DNA from: Dioscorea cayenensis subsp. rotundata
Lineage: Eukaryota; Streptophyta; Magnoliopsida; Dioscoreales; Dioscoreaceae
Length of the DNA: 64,000 nucleotides
Direction: 5' to 3'
NCBI RefSeq assembly: GCF_009730915.1
Contig: NC_052475.1
Span: 2,294,001 to 2,358,000, forward strand
The notes below the pieces were generated by a model. The model ran no database searches and was not told the origin of the DNA. It saw only the letters and a program-made list of their open reading frames with translations. Positions 5,399-55,113 of this stretch are shown here, piece by piece (the stretch's first letter is position 1; every line of letters starts with the position of its first letter). A program made the position numbers and the translations under genes.

Positions 5399-6727
5399 TT
5401 ATATTCCTAAAGATTGCACTAAAGAACCAACATATGTTGCAGCTTGATGCCAAGGCCATACATGATTAATTACAAACTCTTGAGAAGAGAAGATCTCCAT
5501 CAACTTGCGGAAAAGATTGAATGTTTCTCCATCTTCGTTCATTTGCTCCATATTCGGGCACTTCAACAAACCAATGTAAGCATCCAGATCATGAACACAG
5601 GTAGGGTTTTTCATCTTGAAGAAATCAAGAGCAAGCTCAACTCCAACATGTGCATAACATGAGCAACTCCATGGAAGCTCAAACTTTCCCCCAAGAACTC
5701 TTGAATTTTCATTGAGGAAAACTCCGGGGAGCTTCGTCACTGGATCGTTTACATTCACCACTCTCAAAACTTTAACTCCGAGCTCTTCGCACCTCTTCTT
5801 GAATTCAGAATTGCCGACTCTCGGCCCCCCAAAAGAGTACACTGTGATTTGTATTTCATTAGTGCCATCTCTATTTAGCCCAAGTTCAGCAAGATCATAG
5901 CCGAGCAAAGTTGCTAAAGAACTCCCCAAGCTATGTCCGGCTAAAGTTATACTCATTTCTTCGCCTTTATACTTGTTAATCATTCTTGAAATCTCCGACA
6001 ATAATTGTTGTCTGCAACTCCCTTGGCTGAACTTACATGTGCTATCATCAGAAGTATAAAGATTGAGAAAACCAGACTCAACCTTAACTTCCACCCGGGC
6101 ATCAGTAGGGTCTAACCTCGCCGGAGTGAGTGAGCTCATGAAATTGGCAATCCACTCAGACTGAGTCACCGTTCCCCGGAAAGAAACAAGTATATCTCTT
6201 CTCCCCAGTCTCTTTGTTTCCTCATCATTAGAAACCGCGACATAACCAATCCACCGGCCACAGCATGCTGTGCTTTGCATAGGAATGCTGATGTCCGGGG
6301 TGGCGTAAATATATTTCACAACATCATAGCCAGGTTTCTCCATCCCAACCTCGGCAAACATGTTTTTTCTCCCATACTTGCAATTCAAGTATCGTTTCGA
6401 GCTCGGTTCAAGATTGAAAGCCTTGTAACAAGCGCTAACGAACTCACCGTACCTCACTATCTCATCTCTGAGTAAAGGATTCAATGGCTCCATTAGATCT
6501 TCCCAATCATCAGCTCCTTGAATCTCCTTCCAAACACTCGCAAGCACCGGTTTGATCCCCGGCTTCTTTGTTTCTCTCAGTGACGTCACAGCCACCGGAG
6601 CCACAGTTTTAGTCATTGGTTGTGACACTAAGACATTAGTAACCTTTGTCGAAATTCTTCGAATACTACTACTTCTCTCCTTCTCAGACAAGTTTAGTTT
6701 TGATGTGCATAGAGAAGAAGCAGCCAT
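5399..6727 (-). CDS. plastid-type phospholipase A1 (lipase class 3), EG1/DAD1-like
   Basis: This is a single-exon gene of 442 codons. The first ~55 residues are rich in Ser/Thr/Lys/Arg with few acidic residues, as expected for a plastid or mitochondrial transit peptide. The mature part opens with [22 protein letters not shown], the conserved PLA1-I entry. An oxyanion strand ILVSFRGT lies near residues 179-186. The nucleophile elbow GHSLG has Ser266, with probable catalytic Asp328 (VNVNDPV) and His379 (CVHDLDAY). These are hallmarks of the plant family that cleaves the sn-1 acyl chain of plastid phospho- or galactolipids and, in DAD1 and EXTRA GLUME 1, feeds jasmonate synthesis. Length and intronless structure fit the family. 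The start is the first ATG after a TATA box about 145 bp upstream. The exact subfamily and substrate cannot be fixed from sequence alone; the wording looks closest to the EG1 branch. Confidence 0.93.
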
Positions 6728-6872
6728 GTGTGTCTGTCTATGGTGGAAATTAAGATTAAATTGCTTGATCCTTGAAGAGGAACAAAGCAGAAGAAGAGGG
6801 AGCTAGGAGGAGAAGAAGAAGAAGAGCAAGTGAGAAGCTTGAAAATCCAAGGAGTGAATGAGAGGAGTTGGG

Positions 6873-22190: not shown

Positions 22191-22326
22191 CCATAATCGA
22201 TTTTAAAGTTAATTCTTAGTTTTTTTTAGGTGTAATTAATAAATATAAAAAAGAATATCTTTTTTGTCTGCTGGGAAAGTAAAGAAGCCAGACTTTCTGG
22301 CAGCAAAAGCAACCATAACTTGGTAG

Positions 22327-22758
22327 ATGCCCTATAGCCTTCCACATGACTCCAAGAATTCCACGGCTCCGTCCACCAGCATCTCAACAACTAGAATGGA
22401 ACCTTTCTCGCCCCTTCTCCTCCCTTCTAAACCACCAGACCTTGCCCAAGCTCCACCCGGTTCCAACCCCAACACCATGGCGTTCATCGGTATCAGAGCT
22501 CTGAGGAGGACCACCGTTCTCGTGGGCACGCTCAACATCGCCGTAGCAGTCGCCGGCACTCTTCTCGTGGCTCTGCTCCTCCGCCGCTGCGGTGCTAGGT
22601 TGAAGTTCTCCGTTGCTGCTGTTTCGATAGCTGCTGCTGTGAAGGTCGGGTGCATGCTGGCGACGGGGATCTCGCAGGGGGTCATGGCTTCTTTCATCGC
22701 CAGGCAACCCATCGACGGTTCCGTTCGCGAGGACATCGACTTCCGGCGAGAGAGAAAG
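22327..22758 (+). other. candidate first exon A of the diacylglycerol-lipase-like gene
   Basis: The block has 144 in-frame codons from ATG 22327 (another in-frame ATG is at 22477, MAFIGI) to a GT donor, ending FRRERK|gtaagc in phase 0. The last ~90 residues contain two hydrophobic segments (about VLVGTLNIAVAVAGTLLVALLL and FSVAAVSIAAAVKVGCML). They align along their whole length with candidate exon B at 23018. It is much richer in G and C than exon B. It could be an alternative first exon with its own promoter or a duplicated relic. Confidence 0.7.
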
Positions 22759-23017
22759 GTAAGCATTCCATTTAAAGCCAGTCTAAAATATTTACGGAAA
22801 AAAAAATGGTATTTATTACAAAAGCAGAGGGGTAACAAGTAATTTGCATATAAAAGTTGCTGCTTGATGGACACATTCCCCATTCCCAATTCCTACTAAC
22901 TCGGTGGTTCATCTGAATCCATCTCATCTCCCCTTCCCCTCCGGCCAAGAATCTATGGCCAAGCTCCAGACCCTAGCCTCTCAAATTTAAGATCCATTTT
23001 ATCATTGTTCTCTCCTG

Positions 23018-23332
23018 GTGCCGATGGGGGACTTGGTGCCGGAACGCACCTCGCTTGTCCTTAGTCTGGGGAGTGTCAGATGGGTCTCTCTGTTGCTTGC
23101 CATTGGGAACCTAGTTGTTGCCCTCCTTGGTATCTATCAAGTCGTCCTTTTGGTCCCGAGCTGCTACGGTAGAATGAGGTTCTCGATTATGGTAGTTGCA
23201 GTCTTCGCTGGGCTTCGGATCTTGTCCTTGGTCCGGGCTGGGCAAGCTCAGCTAGCAACCGCGGAGACCATTATTGGAAACAACGTTGATAACTCTGTCA
23301 TTCCTCATTCTGTGATCCGCCAGGAGAGACGG
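23018..23332 (+). other. candidate first exon B of the diacylglycerol-lipase-like gene
   Basis: The block has 105 codons from an ATG in cgATGGGG-rich context to a GT donor after QERR|gtatta, phase 0. It holds two predicted membrane segments (WVSLLLAIGNLVVALLGIYQVVLLV and FSIMVVAVFAGLRILSLV). It lies nearest to exon 2 and has the same donor phase as exon A. There is no convincing acceptor at its start, which argues that it begins a transcript rather than being internal. Confidence 0.75.
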
Positions 23333-23370
23333 GTATTATGTTGAAGGAAGTTGATTTCTTTTTGGATGAA

Positions 23371-23415
<45 letters not shown>

Positions 23416-26400
23416 TACATTTATGTGATTTGTAAGATTATTTGGTATGTTTTGATTGTCGAGTTTCATATAGATCATCCTATTAATTTGTCAAGTTTCT
23501 TGATGGATAGATGAGGTATCGAAGATGGCTTTGGTGGGCGAGGATTGGATCAGTGGTGACTATATTGCAGTTTGTGGGAGTTCTTTACTTGATGCTTGTC
23601 ATGGCTAAGAGTCTTTCTTATTATGAAAACACAAAGGACTGCTTCTTAGGTGAGTTCTAGTCTTCTTTTTTGGCATTGTTAGTGTGCATGCCCCTTCTTG
23701 GGCGAGCTCTAGTCCTGGCTTTTTGTCTATTTTTCTTGTTTTAATGAACTATACAGTATTATATACTTGATCATTGCTGACGAGAAGTTAGTTCTGACAT
23801 GTGGTGAAAAATTGTACACTGAGATTCTCCTATTGGCCATATACTTTTAATTCTATACAAATTATGCAGTATATCTTATTAGGAGTCAGTGATATCATGT
23901 TAAATTTTAGTTTAGCATGTTTACCCTTCTGATGGTTCAGGAAAAGCTGGGAAGGGTGGCAAGCACACTTTAATAGTGTCTTATCTTATCCTGGTGTGGC
24001 TACTGGTCATCATACAGTGCTTTACAGGGTCCGATGTGCTAAGATGGAGATCATTTTATGCAACTCATGATACAGCATGGAAAGCTCACTACCAGGAGGT
24101 ATTTGATTATGGAATTCGAGAGGCTTTGTGCTGTCTAGGGCGTATGAAATACCTGTAGGGTTCTCTCTAAAATTAACTAAAAGTTTAACTTTTATTTGCT
24201 ATATTTTTTTGAATTCATCCTATTTTCTTCTTTTTTTCCTTTTCTTTTTATTCAGGAGTGTTTTAGAAGAAGATGAGGTGTGCTCTGTAGCCAGGCTGTT
24301 GGGTGATCTTGTGGCATATCGTGCATCTGGCACAGGACATCTAGAGCTCTTGGCAGGTTCTTCTCCTTGAATTGTAACATCATGATATAATCATATGACT
24401 CTATGATGCTTTATTATGTTTGTTTCAATTTTTTTTCTTCATGCTGTTTTTTTTCGCTTTTACTCCATTCTTAGTGTTATATGATTATATCATAGAGTCA
24501 TATGATGTATATCATAATACTTTGACATAGATAAAAATATTTCTCACATTATATTTTAATATGAGAATGCGATGCAATGGTAGTCGGTAATACTTGAGTT
24601 AGTATACTTGAATTGATCTCTTATCTGGTTGAAATCTTGAGTTTGATCAACAGAAGGTATATTCATGTGGTTGAGTCACTAAAGCGAGAAACAAGCATAA
24701 CCTACCAGGGCACTGATTAACATGAACTTGAGCGGAGTTTGATCAAGATTAGTTCTTTAAGTCCTAGCTCTATGACTATGGCTTTAGGTAAAGAAGACAT
24801 AATAGATGTAAAACTCTTGATTGACCATAATGTGAATGAGAATGTTGACCCTTTTTTTTTTCCATTCTTATAATTGAATGTAATTTTATTTTATTTTTAT
24901 TTATTTATTTATTTATTTTTTTGTGTTAAGGTTATTGCAGTGGGTCTGATATTATATTTTTCTGCAGGACTTGCTTTATTACAAAAACATAAGAATTCTC
25001 CAAAGTCATGTAGCGAACTTATAGAGGCACCAGAAGAACGTATTCGAGATGGTGCTGCTTATCATCAGTTTGCTGAGGCTGCATACACAGTTATGAGTAT
25101 TTTGAGGCATTTCATCTGGCCACGGCATCTTGTTTGACTTTATTTGATTTCCTGTGCAGGGACCATTACTCGATCTTGGAAGAAATCCTGTCCTATTTCC
25201 ATGTGTGTGGCTCCACAGACAAGGGGTTTTAACTCCTTGGTCTTGGACAAGGTTCCTTTACTGGCCATTTGAAAGACTGAAACTGCAGTTCTCTTTTGTT
25301 ATTTATGTATAGCAGCATTGGAAACCTTCCAAGAGTTTGACTGTGCACTTATGTGTTTTGCTCTTGTATTACCTGCCTGTGTGTATTCCTATATTCATTT
25401 AATTGAAGTGTTCCATTTTTATTCCTTTCTTTGTGTTGTAGGCGACCCATGCTAGAAGGTGATAACTGGTGGCGTGGACATGCAGCTGCCTTTTTAAAAT
25501 ATGTTCGTCTGTCTCCAAATGCTCTTCGCCGTGGGCGTGTTAGTCAAGTGAGCATATCTTTGCCCTACCTTATGATTTCTAGTGGTAATTCATCAAGACG
25601 AAAACTAGCTAAGTGTTAGTATCATAATATTTTTCAAATTATTACCAAAATACAGGATGCTGTTCTTGGAAAACACATTGGAAAACACACACACACCAAC
25701 ATATATATGCTTGCAGATACATGCATGTGAACATGCATGCACTTGTCAGTTACCCAGTCAGGAGTTCACCATATTTTTATATTTTATTTACGCATGGCTG
25801 TTTTTGTTGTACATCAGACAAAGCGTGAGGCTGCGTACTTTATTGTGGTTTTGCATGATCAGAAGGTGGTAGTCATTACTGTAAGGGGCACCGAGACTCC
25901 TGAAGACCTTTTAACTGATGGTTTATGCAGAGAATGTGCCTTGTCCATGGCAGATTTGGATGGGTTGATAAAGAAAGTCTCTCTCTCTCTGCTTTTGTGC
26001 CTTTTCATCTTTTTTTCTCTTGTTTGTGCGTTTGTTACTTTGATATATTATCTGAACTTCCATTTTGCTGAAAATTAGGCTTGTTGGATATGTTATTGTT
26101 TTGTTCTCATCATGCATATTCCTATTTAATAATATATTGGCTATCTTTGTGTCACAATTTTATATTATACCTATTTCTAGTATTTACTCTCTTTAGATAG
26201 ATGAGAATATATAATCAGTGCCCTTCTATTTTGTTCTAATCATGCATATTCCTATTTAACATGTCTGCATATTGGACTTCTTTCTATTGCAAGTTTATAT
26301 TATACTCTATAATTTCTAGCATTTACTCTCTTCAGATAGATGCAGAATGTATGGTTAAATGTATTTTCCTGGTCAAAAAGAGTATTCGAGCAATCTCTGA

Positions 26401-29400
26401 TACTATTATTTTTCTATTGAGTAGATTTGGTGGTAGACCTCTGTAATTGAACTATTGTGACTGTCAATTTAAAAGCAACCACAACTGAAGGTTTTAAATA
26501 TGCAGTATGCCACTTTTGTTTGAACTTGCATCTTCTTGACTGTCATTGTGTGCTAGCCTGTTTCTTATGGAGTTGCTATTTCTTGTCAATATCATTTTTC
26601 TTCTGTTTTGTGTGCCAACTCTATCCTCATTTGCGCCTGTTTTCTTTTTACAGTAGTGACCATTTACACCACAGTGTGCGAGAAAGAGTTCTCTCTTCTT
26701 TCCCTCATTATGGGCACTCTGGAATAGTTGAATCTGCTCGAGAGCTCTTCATGCAAATTGATGGACAACCTGGTGATGACGGTCAGGATTGCTTCATCTC
26801 AATATAAATATCTGTGGGCCTTCAGTGATTTATTTGTTTCACTTATGTTTCTTCTGTTAGCTTCCATTTTTCTGCATCCAAAGTTTGAGTTATGTTCCCA
26901 AGATTCATGGTTTTTAACATGGATTTAGTTCTAAATGTACCTGAAGGTGCCTATTTCATACGCCATGTCCTGAAAGTGATTTTTTCTCCTCATTACTTTC
27001 GTTTAACTAGAAGGCAAACAAAAGCTATATTACCTTTACTCCTGGTCACATAGCATGAGTGCGGGTTTTCCACTTAAATTAAGAAAAAGAAATACATAAA
27101 AGTGTGTAAATTTATACACATAGATGCATTGAAGTTTCTGGAATTGTATGTATCTATGCTGGGTTTGGTAAATGTAATTCAATTGTGTCATTGGGCACTA
27201 AGAACCACGTAAAGTCATTTGCCTTTAGTATTATCTGCTTGTCTATTCTTGAATGAAAAATTGGCTAAGAAAGTTTCCCTGGATGATTAATTATGATGTA
27301 TGTCCAGAGGATGCACTCTACCGGCCTTATACTTCTTATATTTGGTTCATGGTAGTTGCAGGAACCATTCATTTTGTTGAAATTATGAGTTTTTATGTTA
27401 CATATGATTATTTAATTCTAATAAAATGGCCTGTTATACTTCTAGCTTTGGAAGAATAAGCCTTACAGTTTCTCATTTGAAGGATTTTAGAACAACTTGC
27501 AACTTTATGTTTTTATTTGAAAGTAACGTTTTGAAGGGATAAGCTAAATTTTAACCTTAATCACTTAGCATAGACAGAATGAACATTGATTTCTGGTGAA
27601 ATTTGTGCCCTAGAATATGTTTACCACAGGTTATATATATTCTTAATACTGGCTGTATGACACAATGAAGTTCAAATATGCAATTCCATATTCACTAATT
27701 TCATGCAACTATAAAGAGCTATCTGATGGATGTTACTTGGCATGGGAAATCATGCCATTTCAATTATTTTGGATGATACTTTTGCATTACATTAGAATGT
27801 ATGTATCTGCAGATAGCGTATCAACTGAAACTACTGGATTTCTATCTTCCTTGTTGGGAGTGGGATGTGAGTGCCAAGGATATCAACTTCGTCTTGTTGG
27901 GCATTCTTTAGGAGGTGCTGTTGTGACACTCTTAGGAATTAGGGTAAGCATTTACTATTTAATTGTAAGATTTATTTACACAATTTCCTTGGACGAAATA
28001 TTGTCAAGCATGACCATATCTGGAGCTTGCCTGCATTAATTCAAATGAAGTGTTTGTTTTTTATTTCATTTATCATATCTTCTTATAGAACTCTATAACT
28101 AGTTTGTCATGCAATGCCACTATTTAGAAATTGCATAGATCCCCTTTTTTTTTGGGAGGGCCTCAGTCGCATAGACCCTTTTTTTCTTTTTGTAGTGGTT
28201 TTTTTGGGGGGGGCGGCTCAGTTGCATAGACCCTTTTTTTTCCCCCTGGGTTTAGTTAGAATAAATGATATTTTTAAATTTTCAGAGAAATATCTGCATT
28301 AGTGTGTCCACCAAGCAGCTTCTATGTTTCAATTTGATTTTATGTTACATGTTCATTTTCCACATCTGTGCCTCCATTGAGGAGTTTGGATTCATTTTGT
28401 GATCTTGCTACGTTGTTCCCTTAATTTAATTTATGTTGCAACTTTTAATTAGCTTGTTGATTATTACTTTTAGTTGTTGATTGTCATTAAGCATATGAGA
28501 TGTTTGGACAGATTTTCTCTTCTAAAAAAGACTGAATTAGCTGAAATCACTGTAGTTTTTGATTTTCAATCTAAAATGATTGTTCAGTTGGTTTGGTTGT
28601 TATAATTCTAAACCGGTTTTTTTTTTTCAGTCAACCAACCTGATTGAATGACTTGATAGAAATTTTTGGATAGAAATTTTTTCATTCCTATAAGCATCTA
28701 ACTTAAACAGAGTACCTGGATATCTGAAAGAAATTTTTGGATATCCAAACTCCCGAACGCAATAAAGTGTGGCTCAATGCTACTGAGTTATTTAACTTGC
28801 TAGAAAAAAATCATTTAAGTTTAGGTGGACTTCTGGATGTGATAATCTTTTTTCCTTTTCTATACCAAGTACTTGTATTATTGCTGAGATCATTTTTATT
28901 TAATGCATGGAAAAGCCCATCTCATGAGTCTTATTATTCAACAGTTATATCGAAGGTATCCTAATTTGCATGTCTATGCATATGGGACTCTTCCTTGTGT
29001 AGATTTTGTTGTAGCTGAAGCATGTTCAGACTTTGTTACCACGTGAGTATGCCTTTGTGGATAAAACTTACAATTGAAGTGTCTATTCTTTTCCTTAATT
29101 GGCTCAGCCTAATGTAGCAGCAACTTGTTTCTTCACAGCATAGTATACAATGATGAGTTCTCTGCACGGCTTTCAGTTAATTCTATATTGAGACTCCGTT
29201 CTGCTGCAATCACTGCTCTTTCAGACGGTTCCTCAGCTGATAAAGCAGTGATATTCAAACTTGCCCGAAAGTTTCTTGCAAATAAATACCCTGAGAATAG
29301 GGAAAGCCATAATGTTGCTGCTTCATCGTTTCCAGCTAACTCCAATAATTTTGATGATAATAACAATCTGTATAAGAGGAGGCCTTCTTTGTACACTAAC

Positions 29401-31850
29401 AATGGTGGGTTACTGGCTTATGGTCATCTGGTTTATTTTGCATTGAATATCTCTACTTGTATGGTTTTATTCCATTATTAACTGTGAAGAATTTGTATGA
29501 GCTACCTGCAGGTATTTCTTCAAAACAGGGGTTTCTCAGAATTTTATTTCTTTTTTTTACCAAACTCTTCCTGCAGGTGGCAACCAACTGAACCAGGACC
29601 TATTTCAGGGGGAGGAGGCTTCCTTTGCCAATGATTCAGCTCCAGACATGATTACTGGAATCTTCAATGAAAATAAAAATGCTGAAATTTTGAGTTGTAG
29701 TAGTATATGTGGATCTGGCTCCTTTAAGCAAAGAGGTTTTGAAAGCACTGGTAATTTGATGTCTTATGGGGAATTGGCCTCTCAGATTGTTGACAACCCC
29801 CCTTCAAATGAAGTGTCAGCTGGTGAAACCCCAGAAATGTATCTGCCAGGCCTCATTATTCATATATTACCAGAACCAAAAAATCTATTTTCTCTTTGGA
29901 GAGGCTGGAGCATTTACAACAGAGATGATCAATATAATGCTTATGTTGCAGACAGGGAAAGCTTTAAAGATATCGTTGTGTCTCCCTACTTGTTTCTTGA
30001 TCATCTGCCATGGAGGTAATTTCTCTCTACCATCCATAAATCATCATATCATGAGTTAATGGCTGATGCAGGCTTGTAGGTGTTAGAAGCACATGCTTTA
30101 TCTTATTAACTAATTGTTATGAATTTTGATGAAATAAAAGGATGAGAAAAGATGCCCAGGGGCGTATAATATTTTAATCATATAATGCAAATTTTCTGTT
30201 AGAAAACTGTTGACTAGCTATCTGCTTAGTTTCATTGGTCAGTTTATTTAAACATGTCCTCGGATATGGGTGATGTTATTTTATTCAAAAGCTATTCATG
30301 CCATACCTCAAAAATACTGACATTTAGCAAGTAAACATTTAAATACAGTCGGGATCTCTAACTCAGAATTTTGTGTACACATCTTCAAAATTCTTGCTAT
30401 ATTTATCTGTTAGCTTTGTGCATTTATGCTCAATGGTCATATGAAAAGTGGGTTGAGAGATCCGAGACCACATTTTGGTTCTCTCAATTTTCCAGCATTT
30501 CAAACATGTCAATTTTCAAGAAGGCATGCAAAACGCTGGCCTTTATGCTTCAGTTTCCAGTGCATGGCTGGCTATTCTTGGGAGGATAGAAGCATGGAAT
30601 TTGTATTCAGATTGGTCCAAATCATTAGGATGTATGACTCCATTTTTGTGTTGGTTAATCGCTTATCCAAAATGGTGCATTTTATTCCTTGTCAGATGAT
30701 TGATGATGCTAAGCATGCAGTTAATTTGTTCTTTCGTTAAGTAGTGCATTTATATGGTTTACCAAATAGCATTGCGCTGATTGAGGTGTTAAGTGCACTA
30801 GTTATTTTTGGAAGCATTATGGGCTAAGATGGGTACTAAGCTTTAGTTTTCTAGTGCCTATCATTCTCATACGCGGGCAAAAGATAAGATGTAAACATGA
30901 GTTGGGTTACCTTGTTCATTGTCTTGTGTCTGACCATTATTAAGCGCAGGATGTATTGCTCCCTCAAGCCAAGTTTGCTTGTGATAGTTCAATAAACCAT
31001 TGCATCTGCATATCTTCTTTCTAATCGGTAACGGGTAGCACGCCATACACATTTTGACTTTGCACTACACATTCAGTACATCTGATGTGTAGGCCAAAAT
31101 TATTTCTAGCAATGAACATTATAAGCAATAGGCTGACCTTCACAAACGGCATATGAAGTTTCAGGCCAACAACAGAGTACTTGTGCATTAACAACTAAAG
31201 CAAATTTTATAGTAATTTTTTTATGTGTTCCATCGTAAGATCTAAAATTTACAATTTGAAATTTGGATAGGCACTTTTTATGCAGGTTGGCATGGGTAAA
31301 GGATTTCTATGTCAGTAAAAATGTTAGTGAATCCATTAGAGTTGGCACTTGTTACTAGTTTTGGGTAAAATGGAAGAGGTAACTTGGATTTGGATGAAGG
31401 ATGGATATCTCAAGAAGAACTGCAAAAATTAGTCTCTCACTTGTGGGAGACTTAAATTTCTGGAGTTGCGAGGTTTATATAGGAGAGGAACTGATGCATT
31501 TTGAGTTTTTGAATTTTAGAATAATAACAAACTTGGTTTTCATGTTTGCTTCTGGCTTATTGTGAGCGCAATAGTTTGTATTCCATCCTATTTAAGAGTG
31601 TTGGCAATAGCAAAATGGTGGGTTGTTTAACCCATCAGTTCATGTGATTATCATACATGGTTCTTTGTTTCCTTTGAATTTTCATGTTCCTTTGCAAAGC
31701 TTGCATCAATTATCATCTCAGGTCTTGGATTTATTTACAGAGTCAATGAACTTTTTCAGGTGCCATGCCGCATTGCAAAGAGTTCTACAAAATAAAAAAT
31801 CTCAGAGCCGAAGGAATGATGATTTGTTCAATGAAGTGGTCATAGTCTGA
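23018..31850 (+). CDS. sn1-specific diacylglycerol-lipase-like protein (membrane, lipase class 3)
   Basis: Exons: 23018-23332 (or 22327-22758), 23511-23649, 23941-24154, 24256-24356, 24968-25089, 25160-25251, 25442-25547, 25818-25972, 26654-26781, 27813-27943, 28945-29042, 29139-29404, 29577-30015, 31760-31850. Phases agree throughout, giving 798 aa with exon B. Order: four N-terminal hydrophobic segments, the last two being VTILQFVGVLYLMLVMA and LIVSYLILVWLLVIIQC; a conserved linker (DYGIREALCCLGR, VARLLGDLVAYRA, DGAAYHQFAEAAYT); then an alpha/beta-hydrolase. The hydrolase has strand VVVITVRGT, nucleophile GHSLGG, probable Asp in VYNDEFSARLS and probable His in LDHLPWR. A Ser/Asn-rich insert of about 150 residues lies between Asp and His. 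This is the layout of animal DAGL-alpha/beta, which releases 2-acylglycerol from diacylglycerol. The plant substrate is inferred. One donor (after 25972) reads GA rather than GT. The last intron contains retrotransposon debris. Confidence 0.9.
23376..23412. repeat. (AT)n microsatellite in intron 1
   Basis: About 18 uninterrupted TA/AT units lie 45 bp after the exon B donor. It is likely polymorphic. Confidence 0.9.
24360..24960 (+). other. intron of the lipase gene, possible old SINE
   Basis: The interval between the exons ending at 24356 and starting at 24968 contains 24560-24720, with phrases like gatgcaatggtagtcggtaa and ctggttgaaatcttgagtt. These resemble tRNA-derived A and B boxes. No flanking duplication could be defined. 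Confidence 0.25.
28120..28260. repeat. three-copy short repeat with T and G runs in an intron
   Basis: A ttgcatagaccc-type phrase (variants: attgcatagatccc, gtcgcatagaccc, gttgcatagaccc) followed by 8-9 T occurs three times within 120 bp. A ggggggg run separates the last two. It looks like replication-slippage expansion or assembly-prone sequence. Confidence 0.6.
30500..31200 (+). pseudogene. decayed Ty3/gypsy integrase fragment in the last intron of the lipase gene
   Basis: Frameshifted stretches follow the order of a Ty3/gypsy integrase. QNAGLYASV is near 30530. WEDRSMEFVFRLV and YDSIFVLVNRLSKMVHFIPCQ cover the first catalytic Asp region, followed by DDAKHAVNLFFR (about 30590-30740). VVHLYGLPNSI is near 30745. 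LPQAKFACDSSINH is near 30960. KIISSNEHYKQ-ADLHKRHMKFQANNRVLVH lies at about 31095-31190. It is in sense orientation with the host gene. Many stops and frameshifts are present. No LTR or target-site duplication was found, although 31260-31500 may hold further element sequence. Confidence 0.85.
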
Positions 31851-33543
31851 AGACTCTGAACCAAACACAGGAACTTAGATCTCAAGCTGAAGGTTATCTC
31901 CTGCTGACATAATTGTAAGGATTGTTTCAGGTTCAGTATGATTTATTTTCCTTTTAGCATAGAAGATGATTGTTTTAAAAAATAAAAAAGATTTGTTCAT
32001 CGGTGTAGGAATCAAAGTCCTCTTCGTGTAAACTGGTCGATCGATCATTCATCGTAGTAGGCCGGATATCATAAAGAATCCATTACCGTCATCAAGCAGA
32101 AGTGGCAGGACTTACATGATCATGTAATTATTGACTCAATTAAAATTATGTTGTCAAATAAGATTGTTTACATAAAGTAGGTGCACTAACTAGAGAATAT
32201 ATTCTCTTCTTACAAGATGAATACTCTGTATTATATATATGACCAATGTAACCGGGCAAATTATATTATTCAGAATAACTATAGAGATCTCAAATCAAAA
32301 GAAAGTGGGAACAGAATAAAATCTATAGAAAAAGAAAAATTAGTTTGCTGATTCTTAGAAATGTACGCTTGAAAAATTTTAGGCCATTTGTAGAAAACTG
32401 ATGCAAAGAAGAGCACTGGATCCACATGTTGATGAAGAGAATAAGTTGATAAAGGAAAAAAAAAACATAATAATTCTAGATTGATAAATTGTTATTATCA
32501 CCAAATCGTTGGAATTAGAGGCCCCTCTTTTGTAGAAAATATAGATCTACAGCACAAACATTTATTTTTAATAATCAATTAAATATTCGTAAAAGAATTT
32601 ACCATTTTATGCTTAAAATATCAAATACAAGAAAAATCCCTTGTAAGATTTTTTATATATAAATATTTTGCAATAAATCAGGATTATCTATTAACCATAA
32701 ACATCATAATTGCAAAAGAGAGACTCTAAACCAAAGAATATAAAACACTAATACAATATAAATAAATAAAAAAGAAAAAATAGCAAAACAATTTGCACAT
32801 TTGAAGGGTAGAATGATGGTGATCTACAAAATTCATAAAAAAAAAATAATAAAAGAAGCACAAATGAAAAGAAAATGGGAGGAGGAGAAAGAAATCAAAG
32901 ACTCCTTGGGGGATTCAACTTCTCTTGTTTTAAACTTCATTCTTTTATTTCTAAACTTCATTCTTTTATTAGAAATACTCAAACACAGGTTTAGATGAAT
33001 GGGGGTAATGATTCATATACACAGGGCCTCGTTACCCATTCTAATTAAAAAATAAGTATACAAAAGAAAAATTCACAATAAAAAAAGAATTTTATTTCAA
33101 ATCAAATATGATTATTCTTATTTTTTATTTTTTATATTTTATTTATAATTTAAAAATATTAAAATTGGATATTGTACTAATCATCTCTTACTTCAATTCT
33201 AACAACCTCAGTCATATCACTCAAGTGTAATTTACTGTAAAAACAACATTAATTTTTTTCTTTAACTATGATTATATTTTTAATAAATATCCATTTAAAA
33301 AAATATATATATAAACTCAATGCACCTTGTATATATTTATCCAAAATAGAGAAATAAATTAATATTAAACAAAACCATCTACATATTTTTTAATAAATTT
33401 ACAACAGGAATGATTAAACTAGTAAAAATTTTAAGTTCTCAATAAATCCCAATTCCACAAAAAAGCAAAAAAATTTGTCTCGGGATCAGCAATTAGAACC
33501 AAACCAATCTGGAGGCAGTAGCGTGCATTGGGTGCTGTGTATA
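31851..33543. other. 3' region of the lipase gene and AT-rich spacer
   Basis: The first few hundred bases are the likely 3' untranslated region. The rest is AT-rich with no gene. A doubled aaacttcattcttttatt phrase lies at 32931-32967. The spacer ends in the leader of HINT3. Confidence 0.5.
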
Positions 33544-36202
33544 ATGGCGATCTCTCTTGAGGAATCCATTCTCAAGGTCGCTGCTCGCTCGTTGATGGAG
33601 CGACACCAGCGCCGGCTCGCCGTCACCGGTTCCCACACCCGCCCTACCGTCCCTGGAACCGTTGATCCGCTGCGTTGCTCTCCGAGTTCCATTTCGCCTT
33701 CGGCTGCCTCTGCCGGAGACGATGGCTGCGTTTTCTGCAAGATCGTCGGAGGTGAATCCCCTGCTTTCAAGGTAACCAAGTGCGATAATCCATTGCGTTA
33801 TTGCTTGTGTTGTTTGTTTTGCGTTTTTTTTTAAATAGTTTGGCCAATTTTGATGCTTTTCTGATCGCCAATTTCTCTATTTCTATGGCTGTGGTGAAAA
33901 GTTGTGATCTTGATCTTTATTGAAACTTCGTTTTAGAATGGAGTAATTGCCTCAGTGTTTACTTTTCCTTGAAGCAAATCACTGGTAAGGAGATTGAGTT
34001 GACTATTAATGTTACTGATTTTGGATTAGTTAGGCAGTTAAATGGTGTGGTGAATTTGATGCATGGTTGATTATATCAGTTGTTTATATATGGTTTCTTA
34101 TTGATTTGCTCTTTGTGCAGCTTTATGAAGATGATATATGCCTGTGCATTTTGGATTCCAACCCGCTGAGCAAGGGGTAAGGTACTATTTTGCTGGTATG
34201 CAAAACGCTTGCAGCTTTGTATCATTTGGGATGGATGTATTCTTGTGCTTTAATTGCCTCATATTTGTGTTTTTCTCTTCTGTAGGCACTCGCTTATCCT
34301 TCCAAAGTTGCATTTTTCTTCTTTGGAAGTGACTCCTCCTTCTGTGGGTATCTGTTGCTCCTATCTTAAAAGCTAGTAATGTTGTTCAATAGTTTAGTTA
34401 GCTTAACAGTCACCTCCATTTATTTTAAGTCTGATGCCAGGGTGGCTCTAGTGAAGGAAATTGAAAGAATGTTCATCTTCTTTGATTGTCTGCTATAAAG
34501 TAGATACACTGAGTTTTCTGCCCATTTTGTTAGATACAGGTTAAGGATTTCTGTTTACAGTTTAGGTTTGCACTAGTGTAGATTTCCTCCTTGCATGTTT
34601 ATCATTGTAATTGAAAGGAATATATCTTATTTTTTAATGGAACACACGCGCACACATATTTTTGTCGTGTTTTTTCTATGCACTAAACGATGTGATTTTT
34701 CTCCTTGTTGGCCTTTCTCTTCTTTGCTATCTAATCTCTGCATTAGGCCTTGCTCTTGTTATTTTACCAATGCAAAATCTTTCTTGACCAGGAATATTAT
34801 TTTGCATGCAGTTATGCATCTAATTTTCTCTATGTAGAGGCTGTAGAGCCAATTTGGAAAAAGAGATTGATCCCTGCATAGTTAAGGAATTTAAATAATA
34901 ATTCCATTCGTATGAAACTAATCATTTTATCGATGGTGTTGTTGTTGTTGTCCATTGAGAGTTTGATTGATGCAGAGTTTTGGTCTCAAGTGTAACACAC
35001 ACATGACATTCCGATCTTTAAAACTAGCAAATAATTTATGTTGAAGAACAAAGTGATGGAAGCCTGATCTTTTTTGTCTTAATACTCATCCCATACTTAT
35101 TTATCCTTCATCTTTTATGTTAACATCTTAATTAGCATATGAAGTTTCATACTGAGCCTTCTCAGTTGAGTAATGCCTTTGTCCAATACTGAGGCTTTCC
35201 ACTTAATATGAACCCGAATGCAGTTCTGAAAATGATTGCCACCCTCATAATTTACTCCATTCATAGGGGACCACCTTGTTTTTGATTATCATGTATCCAC
35301 CATGGTAGCTGACCCTTACAGTAGCCCTTTAGAATCAGCATAAGCTGCTTAATACATATTGCATTCCTGATATCGGTCTTCAGAACTAGCATGGATGATT
35401 TATTTGATCGGAATGCAATTTGTTCTTATGACAAATGTTTGCTAGTGTCTGTTTACATGGCTTTTCTCAGCTTCTGAGGAATGTCTTTATAAACAATCAG
35501 TGGGAGGATATGGAAATCACCTGTTCAAATATCATATGCAGATTGTAGCAGCCATGAGTTCAGCTGTGCCTTTTCTTAGCAAGGCAATCATGAAAGCTAC
35601 TCATTGTGGTAAGTAGAGTTTAACATGGTCAAATTTCCTTGTTTGCACAAATAATTACTGTTCCTCTCTGGATAGACACTTATGCTAATGAAGAACCATG
35701 ACTAAGCTGATATTCTTTAGTGAAGTCTTGAGTTATAATAATTATAGTAGTGTGTTTTTTTTTAATTGATTCTTATTCAATATTCTGATTTTCTTCAATT
35801 GTGGAATGATACAGACTCATTTAACCTTTTGGTTAATAGTGGTTCAGCTGCAGGACAAGTAATATTTCATGTGAGTTAAATTTTCAGCTTCGACTCTAAA
35901 AATGGGCATTGACTGTAAAAATTATACATTCTAGTGAAACTTCTGTATCAATTTGCTGCATCCCTTTACTGCAGACTCATTTCCATATTATTCCCCGCAA
36001 AGCAGGTGACCAGTTATGGCCTTCTGAGGTAATCACAGCTTCATACAAAACTCTCATTTTGAATAAATTTAATTCACTGATATAATTATACAACATGCAG
36101 GGTGTGAGACGATGCCTTATTGAAAATAATGAGGAAACCTTCGACCTTGTGCGATGCATTAGACAACGGCTTGAGTTTTCTACTGAGGCAGTGTTTGGTT
36201 GA
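33544..36202 (+). CDS. HINT3: HIT-domain adenylylsulfatase HINT3
   Basis: Exons: 33544-33771, 34121-34176, 34286-34347, 35549-35608, 35815-35870, 35975-36028, 36101-36202, giving 205 aa. An N-terminal extension of about 60 residues (LEESILKVAARSLMERHQRRLAV) precedes the HIT core: CVFCKIVGGESPAFK, LYEDDICLCILDSNPLSKGHSLILPK, FNLLVNSGSAAGQVIFH and the catalytic triad HTHFHIIPRK, a full HxHxHxx motif. HINT3-type enzymes hydrolyse adenosine 5'-phosphosulfate and related nucleotides to AMP. The split between LVNSG...FH and THFH puts an intron just before the triad. The acceptor at 35548 (ttgtag) is chosen over the stronger-looking tgcag 7 bases earlier because only it keeps the frame; it reads SVAAMSS. 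The last residues AVFG and the stop codon lie in a 114-bp tandem repeat, so the C-terminus looks recently rewritten. The start ATG is the first in frame with the conserved N-terminal helix. Confidence 0.9.
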
Positions 36203-37854: not shown

Positions 37855-38459
37855 ATTTCACATTCCTTACTACTGGTGTTCAGAGATGAGGGATATGAGC
37901 ACTGGAATTACAGGATGAGAACATTTTTCAGATCTTAGAGGTTGTGGGAGATTGTTAAGGAGAAGCCACCATAGAGGGAGTTAGAAGATGATGCAAAAGC
38001 CTAGTTCTTATTGCAGCAGGCGTGGATGAAACAATTCTTCATAGAATTGTAAGGTTTGACATAGCTAAGGAGGCTTGGGATCACATAAAAAATGAAAACC
38101 AAGGGACATCAAGGATGGTGTCAGTGAGACAACAAACATTGAGTAAAAATTTTGAATTGTTACAGATGAAAGAAGAAGAGACAGTTCATCACAATATAAT
38201 TAGAGTGCTGGCAGTGGTGAACCAAATCAGAGGTATGGGTAGGGAGCTAAAAGATGCTGAAGTGGTGTTGAAAATGATGAGGAGTTTATCTTCAAGGTTT
38301 GTACATGTTGTTACATCGATTGAAGAAGCTAGGGATATGTCTAAAGTATCTCTAGATGAGTTGAGTGGATCTTTGCAAGCACATGAAGCTAGATTCAATC
38401 AATTCTCTGAGAAGCATGAAGATAAAGCTTTCGTGATGAGGGGTAATACAAGTGGTTGA
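37855..38459 (+). pseudogene. Copia gag (UBN2-type) remnant
   Basis: The frame starts near SHSLLLVFRDEGYEHWNYRM (37860-37940) and breaks at a stop. It continues in the 145-codon frame 38022-38459 with AKEAWDHIKNENQG, ELLQMKEEETVHHNIIRV and DELSGSLQAHEARFN, a typical gag polyprotein series. A degenerate zinc knuckle (LRCKKFGHL, stop, SHCW) follows at about 38714-38755. Confidence 0.88.
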
Positions 38460-38859
38460 AGAAATTTTATGAGAGGAAGAGGAAGAAATTATAGAGGCAG
38501 AGGTAGAAGTACTGAAAATTCAAGAGGTGTTGGTTATGACAATCAAAATTCAAGTGATCAAAGACAATTTCAGAGGCAGTAATATACTGGTAAATGGAAT
38601 TCATGGCAGTAAGGGAGAGGAAATTAGAGACCATTTGGGAGGTCCAGTAGAGGTCAAAGGTAGTTTGATGGGCAAAGAATTGGTAGAAGTAATTTTTAGA
38701 ATATGCAGTATTTGAGATGTAAGAAATTTGGGCATTTGTAGTCACATTGTTGGTCTCAATATAGGAGATTTGATGATGGAGTAAGTTCTTCAAGTAACCA
38801 AAATTCAGGCAGTCAAAATTCAAGTGATTATAGTACTTTGCTTATGGTGCAAAATGGGA

Positions 38860-39362
38860 AAGAAAGCAGTAGTTCTTATGTGTGGATTTTAGACAGTGGA
38901 ACCTTAAATCACATGACAGGAAATAGAATGTTGTTTCATTAGATAGATGAAAGTGTGCATTATAAAGTCTGGCTTGGGGGTGATAAAGAACTTGATGTCT
39001 GTGGTAGAGGATCTGTTGCAGTCAATGTTCAAGGAGAAGGGATTAAATTAATTCATGGAGTAATATATGTACCAAAGTTGGCACATAATTTATTGAGTGT
39101 GGGACAATTGATTGGCAGTGGGTTTAATGTGAACTTTAGCAATTGTGGATGCAATATAGAGAATGTAGAAACTGGTGTTCAGGTGTTGTATACTCAAAGG
39201 AATGAGCATAATCTATTTCCTGTGGAGTTTTCTAAAGATGAGAAAATTAATGTGGCAATGTTTGCTGATGGATTATCTTCATTATGGTATAGAAGATTTG
39301 ACCACCAGAATTTTCAAGGTCTGCACGTGCTGCATGAGTACAACATGTTGCTAGTCTTCTAA
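38860..39362 (+). pseudogene. Copia protease and pre-integrase remnant
   Basis: YVWILDSGTLNHMTGNRMLF at 38878-38940 carries the aspartic-protease DSG triad, followed by a stop. The next frame (38955-39362) has VYVPKLAHNLLSVGQLIGSG-like wording, the normal lead-in to integrase. Confidence 0.88.
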
Positions 39363-39404
39363 ATGTGAAAAAATTGCAAAGTTGTGAAGTTGTATCTTTG
39401 GAAA

Positions 39405-39852
39405 AATGTCAAGATTGCCATTTTCATCAGGGAAGTCATGTAGAGCAAAACAGAAATTGCATTTGGTTTATGCAGATGTCTATGAACTAATGCAAACTGA
39501 ATCTCATGGTGGTAATAGATTTTTTCTGTTATTCATAGATGATTATACTCGCATGAGTTGGGTTTATGTGATTAAACACAAGCATGAGGTTTTCCAATGT
39601 TTTCAGAATTTTATTGCTTTTGTTGAAAGACAATCAGGTTATAAACTCAGAATTCGAAGGACAAATAGGGGTGGAGAGCATGTGTCTCGAGAATTTAGTT
39701 TGTTTTGCTCAAAATTGGGAATTAAGCATGAGTTGACAACACCATATTCTCCTCAACAAAATGGAGTAGCTGAGAGGAAGAATAGAACCTTAACAGAGAA
39801 AGCAAGAAGTATGTTAAAGGCCAGCAAGCTACCAAATGATTTTTGGCCATAA
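39405..39852 (+). pseudogene. Copia integrase remnant
   Basis: The zinc-binding part survives as CQDCHFHQGSH near 39410. The core reads VYADVYELM (first Asp), then FIDDYTRMSWVY, RRTNRGGEH and ITPYSPQQNGVAERKNRT-like wording with the final Glu. The usual second catalytic Asp in R(T)D(R/N)GGE is Asn here, so the DDE triad is broken. The frame ends at a stop at 39850. Confidence 0.9.
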
Positions 39853-40394
39853 GTAGTCCCAACAACAACATACTTATTTAATGTGTCACCAACATATGCA
39901 GTAGCTCATGAAACACCACATGAAGCTTGGTTTGGAACAAAACCTAGTGTGCATCATTTAAGAGTATTTGGGTGTGTTACATAAGCTCAAATCCCAGCTC
40001 AGAAATTGTAGAAGCTTGATAATAAGGCAGAAAAAGGAGTGTTTGTGGGCTATAGTAAAAAAGCCAAGGCGCATAGAGTGTTTATACCTACTTCAAGAAA
40101 AGTGGTTATTAGTAGATATGTACAATTTATTGAAAATGAAGTGTGTAATTGGGAAGATACAGTAGTGCCTAAGAAGAAACTTGTTCTGCAAAAAATGAGA
40201 ACTAGTCTTCCAGGTAATTTACATAGTGGTGATAATCATACAATTTCAGTTATTGAAAGTGCAGGTGAAAGTAGTGAGAGAAGAGGTTTGTTTTTAATTA
40301 GACAAGTAACATAAGAAGATGCAGCTAGTGTTGATGAATCTCCCATTCAGAGAGTAAGGACATTAAGAGAAACTACGATAGTTGTTCATTTATG

Positions 40395-41280
40395 TTAGCA
40401 GTTACAGATCCAGGAAGTTTTGATGAAGCCCAACAATATGAAGAGTGGACCAATGCAATGATAGTGGAAATAAAGGCAATTGAAATAAAATAAAACTTGG
40501 GAGTAAAGTGAATTGGCACCATAAAAGAAGTTGATTGGAGTGAAATGGGTGTTTAGAACAAAATATAAACCTAATAGTGATGTGTCCAAGTATAAAGCCA
40601 TGTTGGTTGCCAAGGGCTACTCACAAGAGTATCGATCGGATTATGAAGAAATTTTTACACCTGTTGTAAGGATGGAAACAGTAAGATTGATGTTTGCATT
40701 AACAGCTCAGAATTCTTGCCTAGTATATTAGTTGGACGCCAAATCAACTTTTCTGAACGGAGATCTCAAAGAAAAACTATATATTGCTCAACCATAAGGA
40801 TTTGAAGTAGTTGGTAAAGAGAGTATGGTATATAAATTATCAAAGGCCCTTTATGGTTTAAAACAGGCTCCAAGGTCCTGGTATGAGAAGCTTGATGGTT
40901 ATTTAAATTCTCAAGGATTTCACAGAAGCAGCACTGAGCACAATTTGTATAAGAAAATTAACAAGAAGGGGGAGATTCTATTAGTATGTGTTTATGTGGA
41001 TGATGTGATATATATGAGTTCATCAATGGAGTTGATGTTGAATTTCAAGGATTGTATATATGCAACATTCTTTTGAAATGAGTGATTTGGGTATCGTATC
41101 TTATTTCCTTGGTCTAGAAGTGAAGCAATCTATTTATGGAATTCATATCTCACAGTAGAAATATGTTACAGATTTGTTGAAGAGCTACCGGTTGTTGCAA
41201 TGTAAATCAATGAGTGTGGCATTAATTCCAAATGCAAAACAACAAAATATGAACAAGAAGAAGCAACAGATGTAACATAG
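40395..41280 (+). pseudogene. Copia reverse transcriptase remnant
   Basis: Fragments in order: VKWVFRTKYKPNSDVSKYKA, LVAKGYSQEYRSDYEEIFTP, LDAKSTFLNGDLKE after a stop, KALYGLKQAPRSWYEKL, and VCVYVDDVIYM with an intact catalytic YVDD. A frameshift follows near 41077, with the remainder around SEAIYLWN-type sequence in another frame. Confidence 0.92.
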
Positions 41281-41510
41281 TACATGCAGTTGATTGGTAA
41301 ACTTCTGTATGTAACTCACTCTAGACCAGATATTGCTTTCTTAGTGGGTTTCTTTCAAGATTTATGCATAGTCCTACAAAATCACATCAAGGAGTAGCTA
41401 AACATTTGTTGAGGTATTTAGCAGGTAGAAGGAGTTATGGAATTCTATATGGTAAATCAAAAAAATTCAAGCTGTAAAAATTTTCATATAGTGACTGGGG
41501 ATTAAATCTA

Positions 41511-41870
41511 ATGGGCAGGAAAAGTACAATTGGTGTTGTTTTTAATTTGGGATCAAGAGCTGTCAATTGGATATCAAAGAAACAAGAAATTGTGGCATTA
41601 TCTTCAAATAAGGTAGAGTATATAACATATAGTGCAGCTTGCTGTCAAGGTATCTGGTTGAAGAAAATTATAGAGGAATGTGGAATGAAGTATGAAGAAC
41701 CTTTATATAGGTATTGTGATAATAAATCCTGTATTGCTTTGCCAAAAACCCACTGCTCCATGGAAGAACAAAGCATATGGATGTTAAATTCCATTTTATT
41801 AGAGATTTGGTGGCAAAAAAGACGGTGGTTTTTTAGTATTGTCCATCGAATGAGCAATTGGCTGATGTGA
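41511..41870 (+). pseudogene. Copia RNase H remnant
   Basis: The 119-codon frame has RKSTIGVVFNLGSRAVNWIS, KKQEIVALSSNKVEYITYS and YRYCDNKSCIALPK, the conserved Copia RNase H blocks. It then slips frame before the terminal ADVMTKA-type end, which is read as QLADVMTKAV in another frame near 41860. Confidence 0.9.
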
Positions 41871-53034: not shown

Positions 53035-53110
53035 TTGGGCGGGGCCATGGAGTTTAAGACAAGCCCAATTACATTATGGGCTCTATAAGTAAGGCCCAAT
53101 CATTGGCCCG
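53035..53110 (+). promoter_or_regulatory. site II (GGCCCA/TGGGC) promoter cluster of the PPR gene
   Basis: ttttgggcggggcc, aagcccaatt, tatgggctct, aaggcccaat and attggcccg lie within 75 bp, ending about 75 bp before the ATG. Such clusters are typical of nuclear genes for organelle proteins and ribosomal proteins in plants. A ctataagtaa TATA-like sequence lies among them at 53082-53091. Confidence 0.6.
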
Positions 53111-53181
53111 CCGACTTTCCCGCGAAAACTCAACTCCTAATAACATTAGACTTCTTCTTCACTAGAGCTCAGAGCTCATCA

Positions 53182-55113
53182 ATGGCGCCTCTTCTCCTCC
53201 GCTTCTCCTCCCTTTCCAGGCCAAAACCAACCTGGAACTCCAACCACAACCTACTCATCACTAACCAAACCCTAGTCGCCATGGAGTCCTGCTCCTCCAT
53301 GCCCGAGCTCAAGCAAATCCAAGCCCAACTGACACGCACTGGGCTTATCTTCCATTGCTTCCCCGCCAGCCGCGTCCTAGCCTTCTGTGCCCTCTCCAAC
53401 CCTCCCCAAATGCCCCACGCCCGCCTCGTCTTCGCGCAATCCCCCCAACCCAACACCTTCATGTACAACACCATGATCAGAGGTTACACGAGGTCCACAC
53501 TCCCTTCAATGGCTCTCCTTTACTTCATTGCGTTGATGCGTGAACCAGTCGAGCCGGACGCTCGGAGTTTCGTGTTTGCTCTCAAGGCTTGTGAGAAGTT
53601 TGCTTGTGTTTCAGTTGGTGAAGGAGTTCATTCTTTGGTTTGTAAGCTTGGTTTTGAGTTTGATCTCGTTGTGGAGAATAGTTTGGTTCATTTTTATGCG
53701 GAGCATGGCCGGGTTGGTTGTGCACGCAAGGTGTTTGATGAAATTCCTCAAAAAGATATTTTTTCATGGACAACGATGATTGATGTGTATGCGCGGAGTG
53801 GATTTGGTTTTGAGGCTTTTAGGATGTTCTGTTTGATGCGAACTTCGGATGTGAGGCCGAATGAGGTTACTATGATCACAGTGCTTTCCGCTTGCTTGCA
53901 GATTGGTGTATTGAATCTGGGAAAATCAGTGCATGCCATTATAGAAAAGAGTGATTTTAATGTGACTGTTAACTTGTTGAATGCATTGGTGGACATGTAT
54001 GGAAAATGTTGTTGTGTCGGTTCTGCTAGGAAGGTTTTTGATGGTATGGAAACGAAGGATGTTTTCTCATGGACTAGCTTGCTGAATGCATATGCCAAAA
54101 GTGGTGATTTAGAGCTTGCAAGGCAAATTTTTGATGACATGCCTGAAAAGAATGCGGTATCATGGAGTAGTATGATAGCAGGTTACTCGCAGGCCAATCA
54201 ACCAGACAAAGCGTTGGAAATGTTTCGTGCAATGGTTGCTGCATCAGTGGAGCCTATAGATGCTACTCTTGTCAGCGTGCTTTCTTCTTGTGCACAAACT
54301 GGTTGCTTGGATCTTGGTAGATGGATTTATGATCACTATATACTTGAGAAACAAATCATTGTTGGTGTGAATTTGGTTAATGCGTTTATAGACATGTATG
54401 CTAAATGTGGAGATCTCAGTACAGCAGCCAAACTGTTCAATGAGATGCCAAAGAGGAATTCGGTCTCTTGGAACTCCATTATCACTGGCTATGCGATTCA
54501 TGGTTATGGAGAGGAGGCCCTTAGCCTTTTTGAGCAAATGAAGAGCGAGGGAGTATTACCTGATGATATAACATTTGTTGGCGTCCTCTCTGCATGTAAT
54601 CATAGTGGCTTAGTTGCGAAGGGGCGCAAACATTTCGAAGAGATGAAAACTGTGTTTGGCATTGAACCAAGGGTAGAACATTATGCATGCCTGATTGATT
54701 TACTTAGTAGAGTTGGGCTTTTAGAAGATGTTTTTGAACTGGTGAAGAGAATGCCAATGGAGCCAGATGCAGCAGGATGGGGTGCGATTCTAAATGCTTG
54801 TAGGATTCATGGGAATGTGGAATTAGGTACATGTGCAGGAGATAAACTACTTGGTTTGGACCCTGGAGATAGTGGTATTTACATCCTCCTATCAAATCTG
54901 TACGCAGGCAAGGAGAAATGGAATGAGGTGAAGAAAGTGAGAAGGATGATGAGAGAAAGAGGAGTCAAGAAGACTCCCGGTTTCAGCTCAATAGAGGTGG
55001 ATGGTAAGTTCCATGAGTTCTTATCCGCAGATAAATCTCATATTCTATCTGAAGAAATTTATGGCATCCTTGATGTGCTGTATATCCAATTCAGATTCAA
55101 GCATAGACAATGA
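53182..55113 (+). CDS. PLS-class pentatricopeptide repeat protein, E/E+ type
   Basis: One intronless frame of 643 codons. The first ~30 residues (LLLRFSSLSRPKPTWNSN) are hydroxylated and basic, as in mitochondrial or plastid presequences. The arm ELKQIQAQLTRTGLI follows. P, L and S repeats then run to about residue 530. Diagnostic phrases include NTFMYNTMIRGYTRS, DIFSWTTMIDVYARSG, NAVSWSSMIAGYSQ, NSVSWNSIITGYAIHG and DDITFVGVLSACNHSGLV. The tail has the E motif (PDAAGWGAILNACRIHGNVELG, YILLSNLYAG) and an E+ stretch (PGFSSIEVDGKFHEFLSADKSH). It stops without a DYW domain. Such proteins bind organelle RNA one base per repeat and usually take part in C-to-U editing together with a DYW partner. 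A second in-frame ATG at 53281 would remove the presequence, so the first is preferred. The target RNA cannot be read by eye. Confidence 0.95.
   Translation: MAPLLLRFSSLSRPKPTWNSNHNLLITNQTLVAMESCSSMPELKQIQAQLTRTGLIFHCFPASRVLAFCALSNPPQMPHARLVFAQSPQPNTFMYNTMIRGYTRSTLPSMALLYFIALMREPVEPDARSFVFALKACEKFACVSVGEGVHSLVCKLGFEFDLVVENSLVHFYAEHGRVGCARKVFDEIPQKDIFSWTTMIDVYARSGFGFEAFRMFCLMRTSDVRPNEVTMITVLSACLQIGVLNLGKSVHAIIEKSDFNVTVNLLNALVDMYGKCCCVGSARKVFDGMETKDVFSWTSLLNAYAKSGDLELARQIFDDMPEKNAVSWSSMIAGYSQANQPDKALEMFRAMVAASVEPIDATLVSVLSSCAQTGCLDLGRWIYDHYILEKQIIVGVNLVNAFIDMYAKCGDLSTAAKLFNEMPKRNSVSWNSIITGYAIHGYGEEALSLFEQMKSEGVLPDDITFVGVLSACNHSGLVAKGRKHFEEMKTVFGIEPRVEHYACLIDLLSRVGLLEDVFELVKRMPMEPDAAGWGAILNACRIHGNVELGTCAGDKLLGLDPGDSGIYILLSNLYAGKEKWNEVKKVRRMMRERGVKKTPGFSSIEVDGKFHEFLSADKSHILSEEIYGILDVLYIQFRFKHRQ

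Follow-up and report, generated by a model that had tools for sequence, protein, structure and literature searches.

Two homologous candidate first exons, probably mutually exclusive, in a class 3 lipase gene of Dioscorea cayenensis subsp. rotundata

A 64,000-nucleotide stretch of the Dioscorea cayenensis subsp. rotundata genome (hereafter the window; contig NC_052475.1, our contig C5, positions 2294001-2358000) carries on its plus strand, at 22.3-31.85 kb, a lipase gene in which the coding sequence could begin with either of two exons, A and B, and continues through 13 shared exons. An old duplication of the first exon has probably produced A and B as mutually exclusive alternative first exons of this one lipase. 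The reading is based on sequence: the homology of the two exons, their phase, the continuity of a family profile into exon 2, the intact frames, the uniqueness of the gene in the searched genome (584,211,761 bases in 2249 contigs) and the lack of a stop-free join of A and B in series at the acceptors tested. The exon borders are predicted, set by eye from the reading frame and the GT/AG dinucleotides. The elements concerned, all on the plus strand, are:

22396..22758, plus strand: coding part of exon A, with membrane segments 1-2 of form A; open frame, GT donor, DUF7358 columns 1-89.
22759..22764, plus strand: donor of exon A, AAG/GTAAGC; 8/9 consensus positions, matrix score 8.75.
22759..23023, plus strand: 265-bp spacer, the start of the intron of A and the putative site of the promoter and leader of B.
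23024..23332, plus strand: coding part of exon B, with membrane segments 1-2 of form B; DUF7358 columns 2-89, 61.6 bits.
23333..23338, plus strand: donor of exon B, CGG/GTATTA, weak; 5/9 consensus positions, matrix score -0.98.
23511..23649, plus strand: shared exon 2, with membrane segment 3 and a weak acceptor before it; DUF7358 from column 90.
23941..31850, plus strand: shared exons 3-14, with segment 4, the rest of DUF7358 and the class 3 lipase domain, up to the stop codon at 31850.

The predicted products of A and B are truly homologous, far beyond chance, as a preliminary description of this locus had proposed. Their 87-residue alignment needs no gap, has 25 identical positions and sums to 104 under BLOSUM62; in 20,000 shuffles with the hydrophobic pattern preserved, the sum never exceeded 66. 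Shifting the register by 1 to 6 residues in either direction gives a score below zero in all 12 cases. The 19-residue hydropathy profiles correlate with r = 0.86, and two hydrophobic segments lie at matching places, in agreement with the two membrane segments in the same order that had been described for each exon. Against the Pfam family DUF7358 (PF24057; curated cut-off 27 bits), exon A matches columns 1-89 with 54.7 bits and exon B columns 2-89 with 61.6 bits. Each match stops at column 89, at the donor, and exon 2 takes up the profile at column 90. Both donors are in phase 0 and exon 2 opens at 23511 behind an AG, so either exon fits exon 2, as had also been proposed.

The frame of exon A is open from 22327 to 22758, where the donor reads AAG/GTAAGC; exon B ends at 23332 with the donor CGG/GTATTA. 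The start of B had been placed at 23018, where the codon is GTG; the ATG is at 23024. Exon A contains three in-frame candidate ATGs, at 22327, 22396 (ACTAGAATGGAA) and 22477 (AACACCATGGCG). An ATG and an open frame are indeed present at 22327, the start given at first, but its context is poor, whereas the other two look better by the general rules of start-codon context, and exon A most likely begins at 22396 or 22477. A was also said to be far richer in G and C; with the exons taken from 22327 and 23018, the difference is only moderate (58.6% in A against 54.0% in B).

The gene is predicted to encode a single-copy, four-membrane-segment class 3 plant lipase that is diacylglycerol (DAG)-lipase-like by sequence. 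The spliced model with exon B has 796 amino acids and that with exon A, started at 22477, has 787; neither contains an internal stop. DUF7358 is matched with 313.5 bits by the B form (columns 2-229 of 229) and with 308.6 bits by the A form. The model further contains the class 3 lipase domain (Lipase_3, PF01764; 36.2 bits against a cut-off of 22) and the serine motif GHSLGG. According to hydropathy, each first exon contributes two membrane segments, and exons 2 and 3 contain the other two. We take animal diacylglycerol lipases (DAGLs) to have this same layout of four membrane segments ahead of a GHSLGG-bearing class 3 lipase. Five weak matches were found in the PDB, all to class 3 lipases (E 0.0023-0.008), and none of the five is a DAGL structure. 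At intron 8 (25963-25975), the frame-preserving position has no good GT donor: the best protein continuity, at 25972, needs an intron that begins with GAAAGT, and the alternative GT donor 25963/GTTGAT keeps the frame and loses three codons. The last intron (30016-31759) harbors what appears by eye to be an old, broken retrotransposon integrase fragment.

The nucleotide identity of A and B is 45.6% (119/261), with 39, 49 and 31 identities of 87 at codon positions 1, 2 and 3. The synonymous/non-synonymous comparison suggested in the preliminary description was run and gave a pS of 0.745, which is saturated, and a pN of 0.470; the first-exon duplication therefore appears to be ancient, with both copies apparently under prolonged constraint. 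When B was drifted neutrally to the observed identity, 84 of 2000 runs stayed free of stops and the highest protein similarity was 74, so that no run reached the observed 104; the second-position identity of 49 falls inside the neutral range (mean 39.7, maximum 53). Exon 2 alone scores 51.0 bits against DUF7358, to which A adds 70.1 and B 75.2 bits. For two decoys made from B by neutral drift, down to the nucleotide identity that A shows, the gain is 5.2 and 0.4 bits. Eight A-B segment swaps were designed, and the four with B as the background were scanned against DUF7358; they score 121.9, 127.5, 124.6 and 125.4 bits. Unswapped B scores 126.2 and unswapped A 121.1 bits, and the differences are too small to tell which exon resembles the family more. 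The profile and drift results favor a long constraint on both exons and do not argue against a recent death of A.

The main rival explanation, of which a recent death is one form, is that a tandem gene copy lost its other exons by deletion and left only its first exon, A, which is now silent or died only recently. We consider this unlikely. An exon at 5% neutral change would still be free of stops with a probability of 0.77 and free of indels with a probability of 0.24 (assuming 0.1 indel per substitution), which leaves room for such a remnant, but at 10% these values fall to 0.63 and 0.06. In addition, A nearly equals B in family score, its donor is the best-scoring of the gene, and the core protein search of the window reveals no core-like remnant between A and B. 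An origin of this kind was considered for the PEP1 locus by its authors (PMC3527215).

The copy number bears on both readings. The genome searches score the best candidates only, so the match counts are lower bounds. All 5 reported DUF7358 matches (at least 5 in the 584-Mb genome) lie within this gene. The lipase core protein gave at least 14 matches, 13 of which are at this gene; the 14th, on contig C1, covers 60 residues around the lipase motif at 45% identity, and no second copy of the core is found among the matches reported from the genome. A single core among the reported matches is compatible with a remnant. The tandem-copy origin, which the preliminary description had raised itself, is nevertheless weakened, as no other DUF7358 or core copy is reported and only 265 bp separate the donor of A from the ATG of B; A would therefore have only this lipase body to serve. 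A 258-base query of exon A joined to exon 2 found only the two exons at their own places in the genome and no joined copy (retrocopy). The search of 14 control genomes for the DUF7358 family returned no match. A 221-residue B-form query of IMG/VR gave 5 pattern matches and a 446-residue A-form query of GTDB contigs gave 34, none of them confirmed as relatives; both databases hold no plant genomes by design, and these nulls therefore say nothing about plants.

Several observations weigh against A and B as alternative first exons in use. Among the matches reported for protein A in the genome, there are only A itself and B (28%, E = 1.2e-4), so B is the sole reported relative of A in the source genome, a result that also speaks for a single locus. 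The donor of B is weak, scoring -0.98 in a matrix trained on the 11 other GT donors of the gene (range 4.15 to 8.62), compared with 8.75 for A. The acceptor of exon 2 is also weak: it scores 4.5 when held out, and the 12 training acceptors range from 9.4 to 18.0; this weak-site contrast is partly built in, because held-out sites score lower by construction. An overlapping upstream open reading frame (ORF; ATG at 22346, stop at 22502) precedes the better ATGs of exon A. Finally, TATAAAA words occur at 22244 and, within the spacer, at 22849, but TATA-like words are common, at the level of chance (306 on the plus strand of the window, 4.8 per kb), and the two are therefore no proof of promoters. 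The earlier proposal of a duplicated first exon that can feed one lipase body thus stands as to structure, phase, profile and single locus, and the use of two promoters is not established by the TATA words.

The donor scores (-0.98 for B, 8.75 for A) could also mean that the gene relies chiefly on A, with B a declining or minor first exon. We regard this as improbable, since B has an intact frame and a slightly higher family-profile score (61.6 bits) than A (54.7 bits). In consensus positions, A matches 8/9 and B 5/9, the latter within the 4-7 of the other donors. In a cDNA-based survey of rice and Arabidopsis, the donors of mutually exclusive first exons are reported to be weaker than constitutive donors (PMC2174465), so the weak donor of B need not mean death.

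A and B lie on a common strand, with B continuing where A ends, and a join in series would give six membrane segments. The preliminary description had named such transcripts as evidence against its reading. All 14 AG acceptors between 22770 and 23075 lead to at least one stop before the donor of B, and series splicing was rejected at these sites; AGs deeper inside B lie outside this test. The best acceptor in the spacer scores 3.7, below the 4.5 of exon 2. We consider the series join next to impossible, and transcripts from upstream of A would therefore have to skip B.

Exons A and B have observed/expected CpG ratios of 0.88 and 0.69, against 0.38 for the spacer between them; exons 3-14 reach 0.36 and the introns 0.29. 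High values in A and B are as expected near putative start sites, but CpG cannot tell one promoter from two, because A is close to B. The spacer also holds an 11-codon upstream ORF at 22955. A CpG peak of 1.45-1.59 is located around 19.5-20.2 kb and followed by a fall to 0.17-0.38 over 20.0-21.2 kb, and the plus strand is T-rich from about 19.5 kb. These features, with an acceptor-like site before 22230 that scores 10.2, are in line with A not being a true first exon: it would be reached from a start near 19.8 kb via non-coding leader exons, or its transcript would yield a short protein of two membrane segments, terminated within the intron of A by the stop at 22840-22842. Such an arrangement appears to us a slim prospect, slimmer still than that of a minor B. 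Of 171 intergenic AGs, 2.9% have acceptor-like scores of 8 or more, so that a single such site among several AGs is weak evidence; if A made only the short protein, its exact continuity with exon 2 in phase and profile would serve no purpose. The segment 19500-22230 as a whole, CpG-rich and then CpG-poor and T-rich, resembles an independent transcription unit or else a distal leader for the lipase gene. A 54-residue spliced peptide read by eye in this upstream unit matched no Pfam family.

If A and B are alternative first exons, the gene would work as follows. A transcript that starts upstream of A would use the strong donor of A to splice past B to exon 2, B being skipped for lack of a usable acceptor before it. 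A transcript that starts in the A-B spacer would open with B, which would be spliced to exon 2. The outcome would be two full-length lipases with common segments 3-4 and a common catalytic domain, which differ at about 70% of the residues in the segment 1-2 hairpin. We infer that transcription may begin at two sites, that both junctions may be used, and that the hairpins may alter the location, partner or regulation of the lipase.

First-exon duplication has a precedent in plants. In Arabis alpina, the FLC orthologue PEP1 has a tandemly duplicated first exon, 1a and 1b, both spliced to one exon 2 and with separate transcription start sites by 5′ rapid amplification of cDNA ends (PMC3527215, PMC7927791). 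In one A. alpina accession, the PEP1 copies are predicted to encode identical proteins (PMC3527215). The first exons described here are likewise homologous (25/87 ungapped identity), share Pfam columns and are both in phase 0. In contrast to the near-identical exon copies of PEP1, A and B differ at 62/87 residues with synonymous sites saturated, and the gene is a membrane lipase known from sequence alone. The preliminary description knew of no described case in plant DAGL-like genes, which holds in the literature searched, where an existing report may have been missed; for first-exon duplication as such, PEP1 is the plant case. DUF7358 was not mentioned in the literature searched. What sets the A/B layout apart is its age and the position of the variation, within a membrane domain; first-exon duplication itself is known.

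Type I alternative first exons, which are mutually exclusive and share the downstream exons, are known from the cDNA-based survey of rice and Arabidopsis, where they change the N-terminus in 53/137 rice and 20/99 Arabidopsis clusters and overlap a functional domain in 5 and 1, respectively (PMC2174465). The main text of that survey does not contain the terms duplicat, homolog or tandem, and homologous pairs are not singled out (PMC2174465). The lipase gene resembles this type in that its sequence allows mutually exclusive use of A and B with common downstream exons, and stops occur in 14/14 of the series joins tested. In animals, UGT1A and the clustered protocadherins have homologous variable first exons with their own promoters and common downstream exons; unlike these large arrays, the gene here has only two such exons and is found in a plant. 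AT1G05790, like the gene here, is a class 3 lipase, and we presume it to be the likely Arabidopsis counterpart. In the literature searched it appears in one source, where a table gives it as an sn1-specific DAG lipase (PMC9329356).

We tentatively suggest, at somewhat less than even odds, that the exon duplication is an ancient switch, maintained by selection, of the membrane hairpin (segments 1-2), in which two promoters would choose the membrane, partner or regulatory signal for a single catalytic body, and specialization within one gene would replace a second gene. Should A and B both be in use, a single lipase gene would give rise to two enzymes that differ only in the membrane hairpin. 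The A and B forms would be natural variants with a common catalytic domain, and would therefore offer a direct test of the role of the membrane domain in a plant DAG-lipase-like enzyme. The locus would also be an older, more diverged example of the PEP1-type layout, and a first-exon duplicate could stand in for a whole-gene duplicate.

The window has no Rfam match at the gathering thresholds. Elsewhere in it, a class 3 lipase gene without introns, with a product of up to 467 amino acids (PF01764, 131.6 bits), lies on the minus strand at 5399-6802 and is presumably of the chloroplast phospholipase A1 kind. A frame at 33418-33834 with the residues CVFCKIVGGESPAFKV is, we assume, the start of a HIT-type (HINT) protein, and the broken frames at 37992-41870 read like what we take to be a Copia-type retrotransposon polyprotein. 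An intronless gene at 53089-55113 encodes a pentatricopeptide repeat protein of up to 674 amino acids with an E motif.
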